In this document: positions 11,012 through 33,078 of the stretch, piece by piece
Layout: each line of letters begins with the position of its first letter
Position numbering within the stretch: the first letter of the stretch is position 1
IMG/VR virus record: IMGVR_UViG_3300035670_000822
Span: 1 to 33,078 of that record
Origin: a virus
Strand: one strand, 5' to 3'
Length of the DNA stretch: 33,078 nt
Position numbers and translations under genes: made by a program
Notes under the pieces: model-generated
Told to the model about the DNA's origin: nothing
Seen by the model: the letters and a program-made list of their open reading frames with translations, nothing else
Database searches by the model: none

Positions 11012-11040
11012 TTGCCACAATAGCCGTCCGGGCGTATATT
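11012..11040 (+). promoter_or_regulatory. Early promoter P1 with embedded operator
   Basis: TTGCCA (11012-11017), 17 bases, TATATT (11035-11040). The spacer holds CGTCCGGGCG (11025-11034), a one-base variant of the palindrome found in the other early promoters. From CACAATAGCC through the ATG the sequence is nearly identical to the Erf leader at 20151-20193. Confidence 0.8.
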
Positions 11041-11057
11041 GGCAGGAGGAGGATGAT

Positions 11058-11282
11058 ATGGTGCACTGGAGCTTTTGCAAAATCATATCGCGGGACCGGG
11101 ACGGCCGGTTCCACACTCGACCCGCCCGAAGCGCGCGGGTTGACATGCTTCACTGGCTCGAGACCGGCGAGCTCGCCGGTTGGGTCTACCCCGCCAGCAT
11201 GGGACTGGCGGATGTCGTTGACGACCTGCTCAATGGCGGCGCTGGGCTCGCCCCGGAGCAGGTAGACGATTCAGGTCTGTAG
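11058..11282 (+). CDS. Early protein of unknown function (74 aa)
   Basis: The ATG at 11058 follows a very strong Shine-Dalgarno (AGGAGGAGG) and sits 17 bases after the -10 of promoter P1, with the same leader as the erf gene. The product is MVHWSFCKIISRDRDGRFHT, followed by a helical region (VDMLHWLETGELAGWVYPAS; LADVVDDLLNGGAGL). It stands alone, opposite the divergent methyltransferase gene. No family was recognised. The shared leader suggests it is expressed together with the recombination protein early in infection. Confidence 0.75.
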   Translation: MVHWSFCKIISRDRDGRFHTRPARSARVDMLHWLETGELAGWVYPASMGLADVVDDLLNGGAGLAPEQVDDSGL

Positions 11283-11556
11283 CTTCCATCCCTGGTCGCG
11301 GAGCCCCGCGACCATACCACAACCCACCCAAAAAAGCAAAAATCCGCCAGGGAACCTGGACGAGCACGCCAAACGCTCATGGTTCGGATGGAGTTGCGTA
11401 TTGTCCAGCGTTTTCTCCAGACTCTTTCTACGTAGTCCAACTACTCCAGCGTGCGAATATGCCGCCATTGGCAGGAGCACGCGTTGCGCCCAAAACGAAC
11501 GGTCTTGCACGCAATCCTGTTTCTTGTGCAAGACAATGCAACACGGGTGCGTGAAA

Positions 11557-11673
11557 ATGACGCAATCTAAAACGACATATCGTTTACGTGTGAACGTTCA
11601 CGGTCCAAGTTCGCAAGAAAACAACGGAATAGCGTTTGGAATATCGCTAGATATACTCAAAGGACTGCGCTGA
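11557..11673 (+). CDS. Possible small protein (38 aa)
   Basis: An ATG at 11557 opens MTQSKTTYRLRVNVHGPSSQ and continues ENNGIAFGISLDILKGLR before TGA. The sequence alternates like two beta strands and looks protein-like. Codons are AT-rich, unlike the rest of the phage. The upstream GGGTGCGTGAAA is a poor Shine-Dalgarno, and a 9-bp hairpin (11502-11534) precedes it. It may be an acquired gene or a chance frame. Confidence 0.3.
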   Translation: MTQSKTTYRLRVNVHGPSSQENNGIAFGISLDILKGLR

Positions 11674-12058
11674 TATACCGCCTATCAATACCGTGCCCGA
11701 TCTGCCCGACTCATTGTGACCGCATTGCAAGAATAAATGTCAAAGGTTTCGGTAGTAACCAAAGGAATTCAAGTTTTGAGTGTTCATGCCAGACCGGTCA
11801 TCCTTTTTCTCCGGATAGTAAATGGCCTTCTTTCCAGCCTGCAATCGTGACATGTATCGCGGTTTTGCGCGCCAGCCCCGCACCCCGTTTTGCGTTTGCT
11901 CAAACGCTGAAATACAGTTGGGTGGCGGGAATAAGAATTCCAGGGTTTTCTTCAGCATGTTCCAGGTTGGCGAAAAAAGATGGAGTAAAACTGAGCGTTT
12001 CCGTTTAGAAACCGCTCAAAACCGCCGGATTTTTTCCAGATTCGGATCATGCTCACAG

Positions 12059-12082
12059 AGGCTTTCGAGCCAAATTCGGCTG
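12059..12082 (+). repeat. 24-bp direct repeat, copy 1
   Basis: Identical to 12208-12231, 149 bp downstream. It starts AGGCTTTCGAGCC and ends AATTCGGCTG. Internally GGCT, AGCC, GGCT alternate in orientation, so it can form a GGCT-TTCG-AGCC hairpin or serve as three inverted half-sites. Confidence 0.85.
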
Positions 12083-12207
12083 AAACTGCAACAGCTGCAA
12101 CCACTTCCACTCCATAGCTCTATTTTAAGCTCCATATTTCCGTTACCGATAAAACCAAGGACAGGATTATGGACTGAGAAATAGGTCCGCGTTGGGAAAA
12201 CGGGTTT

Positions 12208-12231
12208 AGGCTTTCGAGCCAAATTCGGCTG
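12208..12231 (+). repeat. 24-bp direct repeat, copy 2
   Basis: Identical to 12059-12082. This copy is followed by GAAGATTTCCAGATT, which places a TCCAGAYT box eight bases beyond the repeat. Confidence 0.85.
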
Positions 12232-12526
12232 GAAGATTTCCAGATTGCCAAAATGTCACAGATCGTGAGCGGTTAGGTGGTTTATAAAGCCCCGTTTCGG
12301 CTCCAAATCGGGTCTCCGGATTCCATTTTGGCTGGAAAGCCCAACTGAGAAACCTGGAAATGCCCCACGATATCTTCGGAAACAAGGCAAAAGTCTGGAC
12401 AGAGCGCACCAGACTCGGCTTGGAATAACCAATATCCACAAGTGTATCTCAAAAGCGCACAACCGTGCCACGTTCCATGTTTTGCCAGAGACAGGAAGGT
12501 GAGTGAACACTTACATCAGAACGCAA

Positions 12527-12553
12527 AAGTCTGGAAAGCAACCTTCCAGACTT
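12527..12553. repeat. Perfect inverted repeat AAGTCTGGAA / TTCCAGACTT
   Basis: Ten-base arms (12527-12536 and 12544-12553) separated by AGCAACC. Each arm contains a TCCAGAYT box. It has no T-tract and so is not a terminator. The right arm runs into the first of two GACTTGCCAGC repeats. Confidence 0.85.
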
Positions 12554-12696
12554 GCCAGCGTCGTGTGTGCGACTTGCCAGCATACGGGTTGCAATCCGCC
12601 CATGTATCTATTGTGTTCAGCTTTTTTGCGCACGGCTTTCCAACCGCTGGGCAGTTTGAGCGGCTTTGACCACACATACAGGTATCTGATTATCCC

Positions 12697-12724
12697 TTGC
12701 GCAGTATCCGTCCGTGCGTAGCTA
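12697..12724 (+). promoter_or_regulatory. Early promoter P4 (degenerate member)
   Basis: TTGCGC (12697-12702), 16 bases, TAGCTA (12719-12724), with TATCCGTCCGTGCG in the spacer in the same register as the other early promoters. The -10 overlaps an imperfect hairpin GTCCGTGCGTAG/CTACGCGGAC (12711-12732). It would serve the tiny ORF at 12750 or an RNA. Confidence 0.5.
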
Positions 12725-12836: not shown

Positions 12837-13089
12837 GCAGGTAGCGCAGGTCGGCGGGGCAAGAGTGGCGGCGGTGTCGGGCGAGTCGCCGGGCCATTGC
12901 GAGCAAAACGGCGGAGTGTCGGACCCAACCCTGGTCGTCGACCGGGTCGGGCGCCAGCCCCGCGACAAGGCGCGCATCGACAATGGTGAAAAAACTGTAG
13001 GGCCGGTCGTCGAGGAGCTCCTGCACTGCGTCAACAGCATTCAGCACCGAGCGGACCCGCGACCACCATGCGCGTCGACTCAGCCTCAT
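12829..13089 (-). CDS. Basic protein of unknown function (86 aa)
   Basis: The ATG at 13089 overlaps the stop of the upstream gene (ATGA). The product begins MRLSRRAWWSRVRSVLNAVD, has a central DRPYSFFTIVDARLVAGLAP, and ends in an Arg/His-rich segment (MARRLARHRRHSCPADLRYL). It is the second gene of a two-gene minus unit driven by the promoter at 13501-13473. The charge suggests nucleic acid contact; no family was recognised. Confidence 0.65.
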   Translation of the reverse strand: MRLSRRAWWSRVRSVLNAVDAVQELLDDRPYSFFTIVDARLVAGLAPDPVDDQGWVRHSAVLLAMARRLARHRRHSCPADLRYLLN

Positions 13090-13448
13090 GGCCTTTTGAG
13101 CCTGGTCACTGCAACGATCCGGCCCTGCCCGTCGCGTACGCACTCGTCGAGTGGGCCGGTCCCGGGCACAACAACATCCGGTCGACCGCGCAGCGCTGCG
13201 CCTGCAAGAGCAGACACTATGTACGTGTCCGCCCCGGGCAGCGGCATTTCTCCCGGTGCTCGCCCGTCCTTGTGCACCAGCTTCACCTCGCCGGGCCGGT
13301 CCGGGCCGTACACCGGGAACGGCTGCCCCTGTTCCCGCTCGCCGGGCAGGTTGTCCACGACCGCGACGGAGCCGCTCGCAGAGATGGTCTCGGTTTGCCC
13401 TGTGGGATACTGTAGCACGATAGGATGGGGTGTGAGATTGATAAACAT
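13086..13448 (-). CDS. Phage protein of the 'NLTPHPI' family, unknown function (120 aa)
   Basis: The product starts MFINLTPHPIVLQYPTGQTE and continues TISASGSVAVVDNLPGE, GPDRPGEVKLVHKDG and DTYIVSALAGAALRGRPDVV. I recall this family from many phages and some bacteria; the conserved opening NLTPH.I and a segment ending in a nucleotide-like 'TYIVS.l.a' are its marks, but its function is not established. The ATG at 13448 has AAAGGAGG six bases upstream. It is the first gene of a two-gene unit under a near-consensus promoter. Confidence 0.82.
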   Translation of the reverse strand: MFINLTPHPIVLQYPTGQTETISASGSVAVVDNLPGEREQGQPFPVYGPDRPGEVKLVHKDGRAPGEMPLPGADTYIVSALAGAALRGRPDVVVPGTGPLDECVRDGQGRIVAVTRLKRP

Positions 13449-13472: not shown

Positions 13473-13501
13473 AAAATACGCCCGGGCCAGTATCCTGTCA
13501 A
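13473..13501 (-). promoter_or_regulatory. Minus-strand early promoter with GC palindrome
   Basis: TTGACA (13501-13496), 17 bases, TATTTT (13478-13473). The spacer ends in GCCCGGGCG, so the palindrome GCCCGGGC abuts the -10 exactly as CGTCCGGACG does in the plus-strand promoters. It drives the two genes from 13448 to 12829 and is divergent from promoter P3. Confidence 0.75.
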
Positions 13502-13512
13502 CCGATTTTTGA

Positions 13513-13540
13513 TTGACTATTATCCGTCCGGACGTATATT
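13513..13540 (+). promoter_or_regulatory. Early promoter P3 with embedded operator
   Basis: TTGACT (13513-13518), 16 bases, TATATT (13535-13540), with the perfect palindrome CGTCCGGACG at 13525-13534. It is the best consensus match of the family and transcribes a leader of about 165 bases before the SWIM protein gene. Confidence 0.82.
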
Positions 13541-13546
13541 ATAAGA

Positions 13547-13714
13547 TGTGAGGGGCAGGCAGCAAAAAGCCCCCGGGTCTTTGAAAATCTAAACCTCCCG
13601 CGCGCGACACGACGCAGGCGCCAGCCAAGAAACAGCGCACGCCGCAACCGGGAGTTCTGAGTTGATGACAGCGCACCTCGGTGCGCTCACATGAGCCCAG
13701 AACAGGAGGATGCA
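13547..13714 (+). promoter_or_regulatory. Long structured leader of the SWIM gene operon
   Basis: About 165 untranslated bases lie between promoter P3 and the ATG at 13715. Visible pairings are GGGGC/GCCCC (13552-13556 and 13569-13573) and CTCCCG (about 13594) with CGGGAG (13649-13654). There is also an outer stem GTTCTG/CAGAAC (13654-13659 and 13698-13703) enclosing the hairpin AGCGCAC-CTCG-GTGCGCT (13670-13687). The Shine-Dalgarno AGGAGGA starts directly after the outer stem, the same placement as in the two pseudoknot elements downstream. A cis-regulatory RNA is likely; its ligand or factor is unknown. Confidence 0.6.
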
Positions 13715-13996
13715 ATGAAGTTGACAGCAGCATGCCTTCGCCTTTTGAAAGGCGGAGCGGAGCCTGTGCGCCTTGACAAGGCGCACAGGCTGTTCGTGAC
13801 CGGAGGCGTGTTCGAGTTCCCGGCGTTGCCGGGCTCGACCGACCGAGTTTTCGCCGTCCGCGGCAGCGGAGCGGCGGAATACACCGTGACAGTAGCCGGG
13901 CGCAAGGCCCGGTGTGCTTGCCCCGACCACAAGGTGCGTGGGCAACGTTGCAAACACGTCCTAGCCGCGGCAATCGCGGCTATGGTGTCCCGGTAA
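13715..13996 (+). CDS. SWIM-type zinc finger protein (93 aa)
   Basis: The start at 13715 (MKLTAACLRLLKGGAEPVRL) has AGGAGGA at normal distance. The centre is beta-rich (RLFVTGGVFEFPAL; RVFAVRGSGAAEYTVTVAGR). The C-terminal CACPDHKVRGQRCKHVLAAA fits SWIM, C-x-C...C-x-H: Cys, Cys, Cys and His are all present. SWIM domains bind zinc and mediate DNA or protein contacts. Stand-alone SWIM proteins occur in phages, with roles mostly unknown. It is the first gene of the P3 operon. Confidence 0.85.
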   Translation: MKLTAACLRLLKGGAEPVRLDKAHRLFVTGGVFEFPALPGSTDRVFAVRGSGAAEYTVTVAGRKARCACPDHKVRGQRCKHVLAAAIAAMVSR

Positions 13997-14061
13997 CTTG
14001 AGTCCTGGCGAGTTGCCCCGCACCGCGGGGCATACGCGAGCACTCAAGCTCGACGGAGGAT
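13997..14061 (+). promoter_or_regulatory. Pseudoknot-type RNA element, copy A
   Basis: Between the SWIM gene stop and the next Shine-Dalgarno lies TTGAGTCCTGGCGAG (13998-14012), a hairpin TGCCCCGC-ACC-GCGGGGCA (14014-14032), then TACGCGAGC (14033-14041) and ACTCAAGCTCG (14042-14052). CGAGC (14037-14041) pairs with GCTCG (14048-14052), exposing the loop ACTCAA, which is the exact complement of TTGAGT at 13998-14003. Loop pairing would form a pseudoknot; pairing CTTGAGT with ACTCAAG instead would open the second hairpin. GGAGG follows three bases later. Copy B shows the same design with a different, compensated inner stem. Confidence 0.82.
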
Positions 14062-14067
14062 GATTCA

Positions 14068-14340
14068 ATGCGGAAATATTACGCTGGCGTGTGGACGTAT
14101 GGGTCACCAATGAGCGACTCTACAGGTAGGGACATCGCGGACTGGTTCCGCTTCGCGAACCGGGCTGAACGCGACGCGTTCGTCGCGGAAACGACCGGTG
14201 CTTTCAGCGTCTCAGTTCGCTCTGCCCACTACCTCGACCTGCGCTACGACCTGCGCCGAGCGCACGGTTGGGAACGGGCCTCTCTCACAGATCCGGAGGG
14301 AGTGCGGGACCGCCCGCAGAAATATGAATGGTTGGTTTGA
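14068..14340 (+). CDS. Early protein of unknown function (90 aa)
   Basis: The ATG at 14068 follows CGGAGGATGATTCA. The product is MRKYYAGVWTYGSPMSDSTG, then DIADWFRFANRAERDAFVAE, FSVSVRSAHYLDLRYDLRRA and a C-terminal RDRPQKYEWLV. The motif 'F.s..eRdafV' resembles small phage proteins of unknown role. Its stop codon is part of the 5' strand of RNA element copy B, so translation termination and that structure overlap. It lies between the two copies of the element. Confidence 0.78.
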   Translation: MRKYYAGVWTYGSPMSDSTGRDIADWFRFANRAERDAFVAETTGAFSVSVRSAHYLDLRYDLRRAHGWERASLTDPEGVRDRPQKYEWLV

Positions 14341-14400
14341 GTCCTGGCGAGCGGCGCCCGCAACGGGCGCCTACGCGAGCACTCAAGCTCGACGGAGGAT
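14337..14400 (+). promoter_or_regulatory. Pseudoknot-type RNA element, copy B
   Basis: TTGAGTCCTGGCGAG (14337-14351) is identical to copy A. The inner hairpin is GGCGCCCG-CAA-CGGGCGCC (14353-14371), different in sequence yet fully paired. TACGCGAGC (14372-14380), ACTCAAGCTCG (14381-14391) and ACGGAGGAT (14392-14400) are again identical to copy A. The first four bases include the TGA stop of the upstream gene. Sequence-divergent but pairing-conserved stems are direct evidence that RNA structure is selected. Confidence 0.85.
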
Positions 14401-14406
14401 AGGGTT

Positions 14407-14616
14407 ATGACAAAGAATGAAGCGTGGGAAACAGTAATGGGCAACAGATCACCAAGCCAACTGGTATCTGAATTCGACCCGGTGGACACGCCGGACCTAA
14501 CAGAATGGATTGATGCAAGTATTGATGCTGCGATACGCGAATGCGCCTCGGCGGAGGACCTGTGGCCCTTCGCTGAGTGGATGCAAGCGGAAATTGCCGA
14601 AGCCTGCAACGAATAG
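14407..14616 (+). CDS. Small acidic early protein (69 aa)
   Basis: The product starts MTKNEAWETVMGNRSPSQLV and ends LWPFAEWMQAEIAEACNE. It is acidic and mostly helical (LTEWIDASIDAAIRECASAE). The ATG at 14407 follows ACGGAGGATAGGGTT, with the Shine-Dalgarno supplied by RNA element copy B. No family was recognised. Small acidic early phage proteins often bind and inhibit host enzymes or mimic DNA; that is only a possibility here. Confidence 0.75.
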   Translation: MTKNEAWETVMGNRSPSQLVSEFDPVDTPDLTEWIDASIDAAIRECASAEDLWPFAEWMQAEIAEACNE

Positions 14617-14675
14617 ACGAATAGCCCTCCCCCGGTCTGCGACAAGCCGGGGGGTGCGGCGTTTAAGGAGGAGAT

Positions 14676-14993
14676 ATGAAAATCTTCGATCCGACCAAAC
14701 ACATTAACGACCCGTCTCCAGTGGACGGTTTTTTGACGTGGCATCCCGACGGCACCGCAACGGTGTCGTTGGACCCGACGGAAAACTCCCGCCCTATCCT
14801 CAAGGGGCGGAATGCTCACGACAGTCCAGACCAGCCCCGAGTTACACGCGCGGTTGGTCGCCCCGCGACCGGGCGAACCAAGCTCCGAAAGGAGCTGTAC
14901 CTCGCGGCTGCTGCGGTCGCCGAGCTCGACCGCCGCTCCGCGGCAGCTGGCCTCACTGCCAGTGCCTACATCGAAAGCCTACTGTGCAAGTAG
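14676..14993 (+). CDS. Early protein with a ribbon-helix-helix-like C-terminus (105 aa)
   Basis: The ATG at 14676 follows AAGGAGGAG. The N-terminal half is MKIFDPTKHINDPSPVDGFL followed by WHPDGTATVSLDPTEN; the C-terminal half has RKELYLAAAAVAELDRRSAA then AGLTASAYIESLLCK. The last 40 residues fit the helix-turn-helix spacing of ribbon-helix-helix proteins (a.a..aeLdrraaa.glt.saYie.ll), so it may bind DNA and act as a regulator. A GC hairpin, CCCCCGG (14629-14635) with CCGGGGG (14647-14653), lies upstream. It is the last gene of the P3 operon, convergent with the primase operon. Confidence 0.75.
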   Translation: MKIFDPTKHINDPSPVDGFLTWHPDGTATVSLDPTENSRPILKGRNAHDSPDQPRVTRAVGRPATGRTKLRKELYLAAAAVAELDRRSAAAGLTASAYIESLLCK

Positions 14994-19835: not shown

Positions 19836-20175
19836 GCCACGATCGTCTATTTTTGGCCTGAAACGAGAATGCAAGCGATATTTGCTCCGAACACCAAAAA
19901 ATGTAGGCGCGCCGCGGACCCGCGGCGAGTGCGTCGACGGCCCGCGACCTTGCCCATGGGTCCGTTGCCGCTACCATCTAGGGATAGATGTGCGCCCAAC
20001 CGGAGGGGTCCGGATCACGGCTGCGCGCGAGTCCTGCACTCTGGACGTAGCAGATCGCGGCCGGGCGTCGCTCAAACAGATTGCCACCGCGATGGGCGTG
20101 TCGGTACAGTACGCACACCGAGTCCTAAAATCGGCAATGGCACGGTTGCACAATAGCCGTCCGGACGTATATTAG
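19834..20175 (+). CDS. Sigma-factor-like regulator with CPW cysteine motif (113 aa)
   Basis: The N-terminal 25 residues may be untranslated, since the core starts at residue 28 (PRTRGECVDGPRPCPWVRCR) with Cys33, Cys40 and Cys45; YHLGIDV and ESCTLDVADRG (Cys68) follow. A helix-turn-helix like sigma-70 region 4 is at about 79-105 (SLKQIATAMGVSVQYAHRVL). I recall such 'ecvdGPRPCPWV.CR.HL..DV ... SC.LDVAdrg' proteins from Myxococcota and related bacteria and phages. It could redirect or modulate transcription at the early promoters, one of which overlaps its own 3' end. No Shine-Dalgarno precedes ATG 19834. Confidence 0.75.
   Translation: MPRSSIFGLKRECKRYLLRTPKNVGAPRTRGECVDGPRPCPWVRCRYHLGIDVRPTGGVRITAARESCTLDVADRGRASLKQIATAMGVSVQYAHRVLKSAMARLHNSRPDVY
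20146..20173 (+). promoter_or_regulatory. Early promoter P2 with embedded operator (erf leader)
   Basis: TTGCAC (20146-20151), 16 bases, TATATT (20168-20173), with the perfect palindrome CGTCCGGACG at 20158-20167. It overlaps the last codons of the sigma-like gene. The transcript begins just before AGGAGGAGGATGAT and the ATG at 20191, a leader shared with the gene at 11058. Confidence 0.82.
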
Positions 20176-20190
20176 CAGGAGGAGGATGAT

Positions 20191-20802
20191 ATGAAAACCG
20201 AAGGAAACATAGGGCCTTTATTCGCAGCGCTCGCGAAAGCGAGTGCGGAACTCGCAAGCATCACCCGCGACTCGCGGGTTGATACTGGCAGGTACCAGCA
20301 CAGTTTCGCGTCGCTCGACGCGATTTTGGCAACGGTAAAGCCCGTGCTCGCGAAGCACGGGCTGGTCATCATCCAGTGTCCGTCCTACTCGGACGGGCTT
20401 GTCGCCATTGAGACCACGATCGCGCATGTGGAAGGTGGGCACATATCGTCAACGCTGAGTATTCCTGTGGCGCAAGCCACACCACAGGCGGTCGGAAGCG
20501 CTGTATCCTACGCGCGGAGGTATTCTCTGCGCGCTATGTTGTCGTTGTCTGAGGATGATGATGACGGGCAGGAAGCTGCCCGTCCAGCCCCGCGCCCGTT
20601 GGCGAAGCCGGTAGACCAGGCGACGAGCGCCAAGCTCGCCGCCGGGTATGTTGAGCGGCTCTCCGGTCCGCTCACGAGAGCGGACATTGAGGAGATTGGA
20701 GAGGAAATAGCGGGTCGCGCTTCAGAAATGACGCGCGACGACCTCAACCGCGTGCGGGCGAAGTATTCGCCAATCTATCAGACCCGGTTTGAAAGGGCGT
20801 GA
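20191..20802 (+). CDS. erf: Erf-family single-strand annealing protein
   Basis: 203 aa starting MKTEGNIGPLFAALAKASAE. The family core is complete: a central beta-rich region (YQHSFASLDAILATVKPVLA; LVIIQCPSYSDGLVAIETTI; HISSTLSIPVAQATPQAVGS) and the signature AVSYARRYSLRAMLSLSEDD with an acidic run. The remainder is a proline-rich linker plus helical tail (LTRADIEEIGEEIAGRASEM). Erf-type proteins anneal complementary strands and support recombination and genome circularisation, which matches a circular map. The strong leader (AGGAGGAGG) and promoter P2 indicate high early expression. Confidence 0.93.
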   Translation: MKTEGNIGPLFAALAKASAELASITRDSRVDTGRYQHSFASLDAILATVKPVLAKHGLVIIQCPSYSDGLVAIETTIAHVEGGHISSTLSIPVAQATPQAVGSAVSYARRYSLRAMLSLSEDDDDGQEAARPAPRPLAKPVDQATSAKLAAGYVERLSGPLTRADIEEIGEEIAGRASEMTRDDLNRVRAKYSPIYQTRFERA

Positions 20803-30367: not shown

Positions 30368-33078
30368 CACGTGTCTCCTACTCGGTGCTGTCCTCGTTTG
30401 AGTCCAAGCTCTAGTGTAAGCCCGTCGATGCGCGGACCGATGCCGAGATTTTGGTACGTCGCAAAATTCGTGTCGTCGCCTGCGGTGTCGTAGATTTGGA
30501 TTTTGACCGCGGCGCACCGCTGCGTAAGAAAACGCATCGGGACCAATATCCGCTCGGACACCGAGTACGATTGCATCGACCCGTACGCAATCGTGAGCTC
30601 GGACGTCGCCGTGTCGACGTAATCACGTGCGGTCGCGACAACCAAACCATGGCTGGACTGCGCGTGCTGCAAATGCCCAACGATCGTGACCTTGCGCGCT
30701 CGTTGGAATCCGGCGAGTGCTCCGATCTTGAGCCATGGTGTCTCGATCTTGAGCGTTATCCAATCGCCCTTGCTCCCGCGGTCCACAGGTTGCGCATCCC
30801 AATAGTAGGTATCGTCCTTGTAGACGTTGCCGTCCTTGCTGGCCCAATGCCACAACCCACCAACCACTCCGGACGCTTTGAGTACTGCGAGCGACCCGAC
30901 GCTGTCTGAGATTTTCCAAACAGACCAGGCGTTGACCGCGTAATTGTACGCCAGAACTTGCCCGACAGACTCTGAAGTGTCGCTGACACAAAACACAACG
31001 ACGTCCCGGTCCGGAAGGTGCGTCGCAGCATTGACCTGTGGGTATGTCAAAAATTCGTCCTGCACCGGGTCGCCGACCGGTAAGAAATCGCCGCCTTGCG
31101 TGAGCTGGCGTATCCCGCCCGCCGACATGAAAAACACTCCGGCAGGCATTGTGACAACCGACTTGGCTTGCGAGCAACCGATACCGCGCACCAGCTCCTG
31201 TTCTAGATACGTCCCGTTGAGCCCCGTCAACGCAGGGCCGTCGCCAACCACAACAGACACTGAGTTGTTTTTGAGCACGACCAACCGGTCGACCATTGGA
31301 GCGAGTGCAACTGCGGTGTCCTCGCCGAGCAGGTCGATTGTCAGGACCGGCGACCAGGCTGGCCCCTGGTCACCTAACCAGGGTTGGGAAAACCAAAGTT
31401 GCCGCGGGTTTTCTGCGGATATCCCCCACAACCTGCCCTGCCACGACACCATATACAAAAACCCGGGTGGGCAAACCGAAGGCGGAACTCCTCCGTCCGT
31501 GTAGAGTATTTCCTGCTCCTCGACGGAAGAGTCCGCCGCACTTTCAGTCAAATCCCATGGCATCGTTTCTGGGTTGATACGAGCGATACCGGTCCCAAGC
31601 GTGACAGCGTACGGGACGCAACGCCGATAGATCGTGGGATAATTGAGCGTGTTGCGGTAGAAAACGATGTGCGCATCCTGCACAAGCGCAGCGGTCGAAA
31701 CCCTTGTGCTGAGTGCTAACGAATTGACTCGGATAGTCGCCTTGTGCAAAGACGCTGCGAAATTTAGCAGGTATGGTTTGCCTGGTGCCGACTGATACCG
31801 GATCCCATTGCGGTCAAACCACTCCCAGACCGCTGTCCACGAGTAGTCTCCTGCACTCAACCCACCAGTCACTCCGCCGTCTGCCACGTAATCGATCATT
31901 GGCGGATGTACAAAACTTGACTCGCACGCGGTGCGCCCGTCGAACACTGTGTTGTTGGCAAACTGGACGGAGTTCCCCCACTTGACCGGGAGCGAAGGCG
32001 GCAAGGTGTTGTCGAAAACAAATAGCGACCCGGTCGACGCGAGGTTGGTCACTCCACCATATTTCGTTGGCAACGCGACCATGATCGTCTTGCCGGAGTC
32101 CGGCGAGGTGAATTGCGCGCCCGCGTACGACCCGGCGCTCCGCGCACCGGTGTTACCGGAGTTGCCAGCTATCCCGTATGCCAGCCCAGCGACGACGCGA
32201 GCGCGCTCGCTTATTACAAAACCAGTGTCAACCTCATCGATTGCCACCAGGCAATACGCGGACTCGAGATAGCCATACCCGCCGGTGCTATACAGATTGC
32301 CCGACTGGCGGAGCACGAGAAAGACCGAACCGTTTGCAAAATAGGCTTTGCTCGCAATCGTGAGCTCGGCATACATGAGTCGGTGCGTCCCGCTAACAGT
32401 GTACGCCGCGTCGATTTTGAGATAGTGCAACAATCGGTAGGTGACAGAAACCCACTCGACGATAATCAGTATCCCGTCCGCGGTTGCTGCGGTTGTCAAC
32501 CTCCGCACGTCCGCGCCGATAGACGCACCGGTGTACAACTCTGCACTCGTCGCAATCAGGTTGAGCGTCGCCATTGGCTGTACGTATGCGCCGGACCCAG
32601 GCGCCGTCCGGAAATAGCTTGCCCAAAGGACTGAACCCGTGCGAGATAGACAGACCGTCCGCAAAACGGCGGACGCCGGAGTGTATGTCGCCGTGACCGC
32701 TCCCGCAAAAGTGCGGTCGCACTTCCAAAGGTATAGAGTCCCGGCCGCGAGGTTGACCGCGACGTACGTGTACGTACCATCGTTCAGCGCGTCGTACGCA
32801 AGATCGATCCTGGTGGCTTGGCAGTTGGTGACGATCGTTTGCTCGGTTCCCCACGCAAGGTTCGGGTCCTCGGTGTCGAGCACTCGAGCTCGCAACGTAA
32901 CAGCGCCACCGGTGTAGGTCGCATAAATAGCCCACACGTACCGATTCGCCTCGACCACGAGCCGAGGCGGACCGTACGCAAGGTCGCGCGTCGACTGTAG
33001 CTTGTCCCACTTGTAAACCCAGCGGTTGCCGGGATACTCAAGGATTCCTCCCTCGACACACCCATTCCCACTTGCAAC
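30367..33078 (-). CDS. Large tail protein, main part (nozzle/hub-type, 1042 aa in total)
   Basis: These 904 codons continue from the N-terminal part at 1-637 across the map cut. The protein is mostly beta (EANRYVWAIYATYTGGAVTL; GTYTYVAVNLAAGTLYLWKC; CDRTFAGAVTATYTPASAVL) with a centre rich in short strands (MIDYVADGGVTGGLSAGDYS; LLNFAASLHKATIRVNSLAL). Then comes a region similar to nozzle proteins: GFLYMVSWQGRLWGISAENP, PMVDRLVVLKNNSVSVVVGD, GCSQAKSVVTMPAGVFFMSA and GGIRQLTQGGDFLPVGDPVQ. The 'd.l...k...vy.i.GdgP...g......gv...g....spv..p.Gvff.s..G.y' pattern is typical of tail nozzle or hub proteins. It ends in TGATG with the ejection protein. Confidence 0.8.
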   Translation of the reverse strand, partial: VASGNGCVEGGILEYPGNRWVYKWDKLQSTRDLAYGPPRLVVEANRYVWAIYATYTGGAVTLRARVLDTEDPNLAWGTEQTIVTNCQATRIDLAYDALNDGTYTYVAVNLAAGTLYLWKCDRTFAGAVTATYTPASAVLRTVCLSRTGSVLWASYFRTAPGSGAYVQPMATLNLIATSAELYTGASIGADVRRLTTAATADGILIIVEWVSVTYRLLHYLKIDAAYTVSGTHRLMYAELTIASKAYFANGSVFLVLRQSGNLYSTGGYGYLESAYCLVAIDEVDTGFVISERARVVAGLAYGIAGNSGNTGARSAGSYAGAQFTSPDSGKTIMVALPTKYGGVTNLASTGSLFVFDNTLPPSLPVKWGNSVQFANNTVFDGRTACESSFVHPPMIDYVADGGVTGGLSAGDYSWTAVWEWFDRNGIRYQSAPGKPYLLNFAASLHKATIRVNSLALSTRVSTAALVQDAHIVFYRNTLNYPTIYRRCVPYAVTLGTGIARINPETMPWDLTESAADSSVEEQEILYTDGGVPPSVCPPGFLYMVSWQGRLWGISAENPRQLWFSQPWLGDQGPAWSPVLTIDLLGEDTAVALAPMVDRLVVLKNNSVSVVVGDGPALTGLNGTYLEQELVRGIGCSQAKSVVTMPAGVFFMSAGGIRQLTQGGDFLPVGDPVQDEFLTYPQVNAATHLPDRDVVVFCVSDTSESVGQVLAYNYAVNAWSVWKISDSVGSLAVLKASGVVGGLWHWASKDGNVYKDDTYYWDAQPVDRGSKGDWITLKIETPWLKIGALAGFQRARKVTIVGHLQHAQSSHGLVVATARDYVDTATSELTIAYGSMQSYSVSERILVPMRFLTQRCAAVKIQIYDTAGDDTNFATYQNLGIGPRIDGLTLELGLKRGQHRVGDT
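32859..33078. repeat. Right copy of the 220-bp overlap
   Basis: Same sequence as 1-220 except G at 32986 and 32988, where the left copy has T. Both differences fall in codon 170 of the tail gene and both versions encode Arg (AGA left, CGC right). Confidence 0.9.

Follow-up and report, generated by a model that had tools for sequence, protein, structure and literature searches.

A private family of three leader hairpins in the early operon of an orphan phage: candidate RNase III-type processing sites

We describe a family of three interrupted RNA hairpins, E0, A, and B, each of which lies before one of three consecutive genes in the early operon of an orphan phage. This structured family is well supported and, as far as the searched collections go, occurs only in this phage. 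Most likely, the hairpins are three cis-acting signals in the early mRNA that would be read by an RNA-binding factor. The explanation that we consider best, tentatively and with rather less than even confidence, is that they form a phage-private family of predicted RNase III-type processing sites.

The phage and its early operon

The window, i.e. the whole stretch of DNA analyzed, is a virus record of 33,078 bases. Because its two ends share a 220-bp direct repeat (1-220 and 32859-33078, 99% identical), the record is probably close to complete, and this terminal repeat, which lies within a late gene and has a few mismatches between the ends, suggests a circular map. The encoded proteins include a large terminase subunit, a portal-like head-tail adaptor, a DNA helicase, a primase-like protein, and an endonuclease; further, a 203-aa protein (20191-20802, + strand), judged solely by reading its sequence, looks like an ERF-family recombination protein. 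The best relatives in IMG/VR share ~40% or less of the terminase residues (up to 39% for the primase), the places listed for the phage collection are below 33%, and a terminase alignment search of GTDB genomes found no relative. The early operon is made up, in order, of the following features.

13513..13540, + strand, sigma-70-like operon promoter (TTGACT-16-TATATT, 10 of 12 consensus matches)
13654..13703, + strand, hairpin copy E0, the third and diverged copy (motif scan and covariance model; fold z = -4.27)
13715..13996, + strand, gene 1, 93 aa, SWIM zinc finger (Pfam PF04434, E = 5e-7)
13997..14048, + strand, hairpin copy A, directly after the TAA stop of gene 1 (13994-13996)
14068..14340, + strand, gene 2, 90 aa, no relative found
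14336..14387, + strand, hairpin copy B, whose 5' outer strand contains the stop codon of gene 2 (TGA, 14338-14340)
14407..14616, + strand, gene 3, 69 aa, acidic (D/E-rich), no family found
14625..14661, + strand, long, unrelated G+C-rich hairpin before the Shine-Dalgarno sequence (SD) of gene 4, without the conserved motif
14676..14993, + strand, gene 4, 105 aa, sequence GRTKLRKELYLAAAAVAELDRRSAAAGLTASAYIESLL

The ORF start listed for gene 1 (13691) falls inside E0, which ends right at the SD AGGAGG (13704-13709); this SD points to the ATG at 13715. The AlphaFold model of the SWIM protein (pLDDT 49) is too poor for use, and for neither this protein nor the 90-aa protein was a relative found among viral contigs. 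The gene 4 product has a C-terminal two-helix segment of high prediction confidence and looks like a ribbon-helix-helix DNA-binding protein.

The spacer of the operon promoter, ~110 bases 5' of E0, holds the palindrome CGTCCGGACG (13525-13534). In three promoters on the + strand (11021-11041, 13521-13541, and 20154-20174), the spacer contains CGTCCGG(A/G)CG and the -10 element is TATATT; two of them (11016-11060 and 20149-20193) also have 45 bp in common, through the SD to the ATG. These three promoters may represent a phage regulon, perhaps bound by the predicted ribbon-helix-helix-like 105-aa protein (14676-14993). A divergent promoter-like site (TTGACA-17-TATTTT, 13473-13501, - strand) faces the operon promoter and precedes a leftward 120-aa ORF (13086-13448). 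Elsewhere, a 27-bp direct repeat, AGGCTTTCGAGCCAAATTCGGCTG(A/G)AA, occurs at 12059-12085 and 12208-12234 in an A+T-richer, apparently gene-poor region (11300-12700), which is a possible replication or partition region.

Three copies of one nested hairpin

Each of the three copies folds as a single nested, interrupted hairpin of ~50 nt (50-52 nt) with 19-20 bp. At the base, an outer stem of 6-7 bp is followed by a 1x1 mismatch and 2-3 bp; above these come the conserved G.G mismatch and a stem of 3 bp. An internal loop (2-3 by 2) that contains the conserved A.A mismatch then leads to the inner stem (7-8 bp), which is capped by a loop of 3-4 nt; in E0, the layout reads GTTCTG A GTT G ATG AC (P2) CA CAT G AGC C CAGAAC. 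Copies A and B are also more stable than shuffled sequence (folding z of -4.2 and -3.1, respectively). The sequence-only reading of this DNA had located A and B correctly to within a base and had described their identical 5' (TTGAGTCCTGGCGAG) and 3' (TACGCGAGCACTCAAGCTCGACGGAGGAT) parts, as we also find, but it overlooked E0.

We scanned the window for the motif UG, 3 nt, A, stem, A, 3 complementary nt, GAG, with an outer stem of at least 4 pairs and an inner stem of at least 5 pairs. Exactly three matches were found (at 13663, 14006, and 14345), compared with 0.057 on average and 1 at most in 300 dinucleotide shuffles of the window; in none of the 300 shuffles were the stems as long as those of the real copies. 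The motif had been composed with all three copies already in view, and an independent test with a covariance model was therefore made. A model built from A and B alone detected E0 with 21.1 bits (E = 0.001, filters off). The model (R1) also matched positions 3-30 and 32861-32888 with 20.4 bits; these matches, in which the inner stem is deleted and only the arms are matched, lie inside the late coding region (the terminal repeat) and are taken as chance. Because they score close to E0, the E-value of the model is by itself modest. Further evidence, which the E-value does not include, is that E0 lies on the right strand and directly 5' of the first gene of the operon. Reverse-strand matches of the model at A and B are the expected self-complement of a hairpin. 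Three copies and no more are present, each before one of three consecutive genes, and they agree in strand orientation and in their position 5' of the SD.

In the predicted folds, none of the three hairpins includes its SD, a point against simple sequestration, although parts of the SD are predicted to pair locally with other nearby bases. The distance from hairpin to ATG is 11-19 nt, with the bases of A and B 19 nt 5' of the ATG. Neither a T-run after the hairpin nor a predicted terminator was found at any of the three elements, which argues against termination, and an intrinsic terminator or attenuator was rejected because no T-run lies behind any of them.

Stems change while the mismatch letters are kept

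MAFFT misaligned E0 to A and B. The pair counts therefore come from a manual, structure-guided alignment, which leans toward structure. On this alignment, no pair is broken; 12 of 20 pairs are changed on both sides and 1 on a single side. The outer stem, for example, is TTGAGT/ACTCAA in A and B and GTTCTG/CAGAAC in E0, and the 3-bp stem changes from GCG/CGC to ATG/CAT. Unchanged in all three copies are the G.G and A.A mismatches, the U-A pair before G.G, and the G-C pair before A.A. The retention of the mismatch letters amid this turnover of the stems suggests specific recognition; with effectively two independent sequences (A/B and E0), conservation of the loop letters could also reflect shared ancestry. 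Between A and B, 4 of the 8 pairs of the inner stem are swapped on both sides and the other 4 are identical in register, so that the two stems differ by compensatory change as had been proposed but are not completely different. The perfect inner stems of A and B could have arisen by templated (quasi-palindrome) mutation rather than by selection. Overall, the earlier proposal of a structured RNA element with compensatory changes before small early genes is supported.

Searches for relatives

No Rfam family matched the hairpins at the gathering threshold, and the sub-threshold matches were chance ones, in agreement with the earlier statement that no described riboswitch or ribozyme class is recognizable; nothing points to self-cleavage. 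In IMG/VR, the exact pattern GAGTCCTGGCGAG...CGCGAGCACTC gave 0 matches, the pattern CCTGGCGA...TACGCGAGC gave 45 stretches (approximately chance level, none with the required stems), and the core motif together with an SD gave 87 stretches, none of them convincing. A pattern search of GTDB genomes returned 0, and blastn returned nothing against phages and weak short matches only against plasmids. The distant relatives found via terminase and primase have no copy by either model R1 or the motif scan. The expectation that a covariance model from A and B would retrieve related copies before small phage genes is therefore borne out by E0 within the phage itself but not in its distant relatives or elsewhere in the searched collections. 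As far as these collections go, the hairpin family is private to one phage.

Comparison with known systems

The phage T7 early hairpins R0.3, R0.5, R1, and R1.3, which lie before genes 0.3, 0.5, 1, and 1.3, are RNase III sites. Like E0, A, and B, they are interrupted hairpins of ~50 nt before successive early genes, and the first early gene of T7 is likewise preceded by a copy. The four T7 sites, folded for comparison, measured 39-52 nt with 17-21 bp and lay 16-23 nt from the start codon, compared with 50-52 nt, 19-20 bp, and 11-19 nt to the ATG for E0, A, and B. Both sets have an upper stem (~8-12 bp in the comparison), a small apical loop, and an internal loop or mismatches. The T7-type architecture (an interrupted hairpin of about two helical turns with an internal loop before early genes) is thus present here, although hairpins of such size are common by chance. 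The two sets share no sequence similarity and have different mismatch letters, and the upper-stem sequence is largely kept among the T7 copies but variable among E0, A, and B, for which RNase III cleavage is predicted only.

Aca2, the MS2 coat protein, and T4 RegA are small regulators that bind phage RNA operators, and operators of this type usually include the SD or the start codon. E0, A, and B resemble them as RNA hairpins beside the SD of phage genes but exclude the SD and the start codon, and a binding protein is putative only.

The ESAS elements of cluster K mycobacteriophages are 17-bp imperfect repeats of conserved sequence that accompany the 13-bp SAS GGGATAGGAGCCC; they are inverted repeats with a variable center just 5' of the translation starts of some nonstructural genes, and their role is not known (PMC3203893). 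E0, A, and B are likewise a repeated inverted-repeat element with a variable center before starts, but here the sequence varies while the structure is kept, and there is no SAS: GGGATAGGAGCCC was sought at the hairpin genes and was absent, the SD contexts being ACGGAGGAT and AGGAGGAT. HK022 put RNA, a cis-acting RNA of roughly 70 nt, recurs in early phage transcripts (PMC9378689). To this extent it resembles our hairpins; however, put consists of two stem-loops that lie 3' of early promoters, and it acts on RNA polymerase, whereas E0, A, and B are one hairpin per gene and are tied to ribosome-binding sites. We conclude that repeated leader hairpins of phage early genes are a kind already known and that the E0/A/B family is new; a described family containing it was not found.

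Discussion

We rank a processing site as our first choice and a translational operator as a close second. Each hairpin occupies the stretch from the preceding stop codon (in E0, from the promoter) to an SD left outside it. For processing, its helix geometry and mismatch letters would be recognized by an RNA-binding factor. Host RNase III would cut the polycistronic early mRNA at the internal loop, which would separate the genes and provide each mRNA with a trimmed 5' end beside an intact ribosome-binding site. Because the upstream stop codons touch or enter the 5' strand, A and B would be opened transiently by terminating ribosomes. The TGA in the 5' strand of B had been read as linking termination to structure, and terminating ribosomes must indeed open the outer stem of A and B; E0, however, has no upstream operon gene, from which we infer that termination coupling cannot be the common function. 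What speaks for processing is the occurrence of three copies before three consecutive genes, the pair changes with kept mismatch letters, and the resemblance to T7 RNase III sites in length, pair number, upper stem, internal loop, and start distance. Against it, the likeness to T7 is one of architecture only, and the shape lacks specificity, since some unbranched hairpin with 17 bp or more lies at a comparable distance in 176 of 1074 predicted leaders (from this and other phages).

The conserved G.G and A.A letters are not obviously required by RNase III and would fit better with a protein that reads sequence. It is possible, if doubtful, that a phage RNA-binding protein, perhaps from the same operon, reads G.G and A.A in the three hairpins; its binding would then block or help the 30S subunit at the adjacent SD and co-regulate three early genes. 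The fixed mismatch letters within variable stems, an element common to three successive genes that adjoins the SD (and, in E0, abuts it), and an operon whose products include a likely DNA-binding protein besides a small SWIM zinc-finger protein are consistent with such an operator. Yet SD and start codon are not part of the hairpins, A and B have their bases 19 nt 5' of the ATG, no protein is linked to the hairpin RNA, and the searched collections gave no homologues for a co-occurrence test. That the hairpins constitute a new type of RNA operator, in which a phage protein, possibly the SWIM zinc-finger product of gene 1, reads a G.G/A.A hairpin before three genes and sets a post-transcriptional early regulon, we regard as unlikely.

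A pseudoknot or mutually exclusive switch, possibly a riboswitch, in which ACTCAA in the loop of a CGAGC/GCTCG hairpin pairs with TTGAGT, had been proposed earlier and seems to us improbable. A and B do contain the complementary strands, ACTCAA and TTGAGT being exactly complementary, and the CGAGC-ACTCAA-GCTCG hairpin can be drawn in both copies; it even becomes the best fold if the 5' strand is blocked, e.g. by a terminating ribosome. But TTGAGT/ACTCAA is the outer stem of the nested hairpin, which has energies of -33.1 (A) and -31.8 (B) kcal/mol compared with -22.7 and -24.1 for the two-hairpin fold; the pseudoknot helix adds approximately -4.7 at most, so that a lead of 8-10 kcal/mol for the nested fold shrinks to roughly 3-6 after this credit. 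Further, the GCTCG strand, which forms the 3' half of the needed hairpin, is missing from E0, the nested helices are those kept by covariation, and there is no Rfam match. In view of the nested-fold energies and the absence of GCTCG from E0, we reject the pseudoknot as the main fold. We give similarly little credence to a general mRNA stabilizer, i.e. a hairpin that, placed 5' of the ribosome-binding site or 3' of the upstream stop, shields RNA from exonucleases in an unspecific manner. B and A rank first and third by hairpin energy among the 1074 leaders and gene 4 has its long unrelated hairpin in the equivalent place, as a stabilizer would lead one to expect, but kept mismatch letters and one motif in three copies are not predicted by it. 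Least probable is a duplicated DNA repeat (a cruciform or start-associated repeat) that does nothing at the RNA level. The identical flanks of A and B look like those of a recent duplication, and start-associated inverted repeats are found in cluster K mycobacteriophages (PMC3203893); however, E0 preserves structure and not sequence, whereas DNA-binding sites conserve sequence, and all three copies have the same strand and the same place 5' of the SD.

With regard to importance, the hairpins come from one orphan phage only, and the case for their structure is solid while that for their function is weak. The family is undescribed, and its three paralogous hairpins make the keeping of structure over sequence visible within a single genome. 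If the hairpins are bound by a protein, they would define a new phage post-transcriptional operator; if they are processed, the gene-by-gene cutting of early mRNA that T7 uses as a strategy would extend to an unrelated phage.
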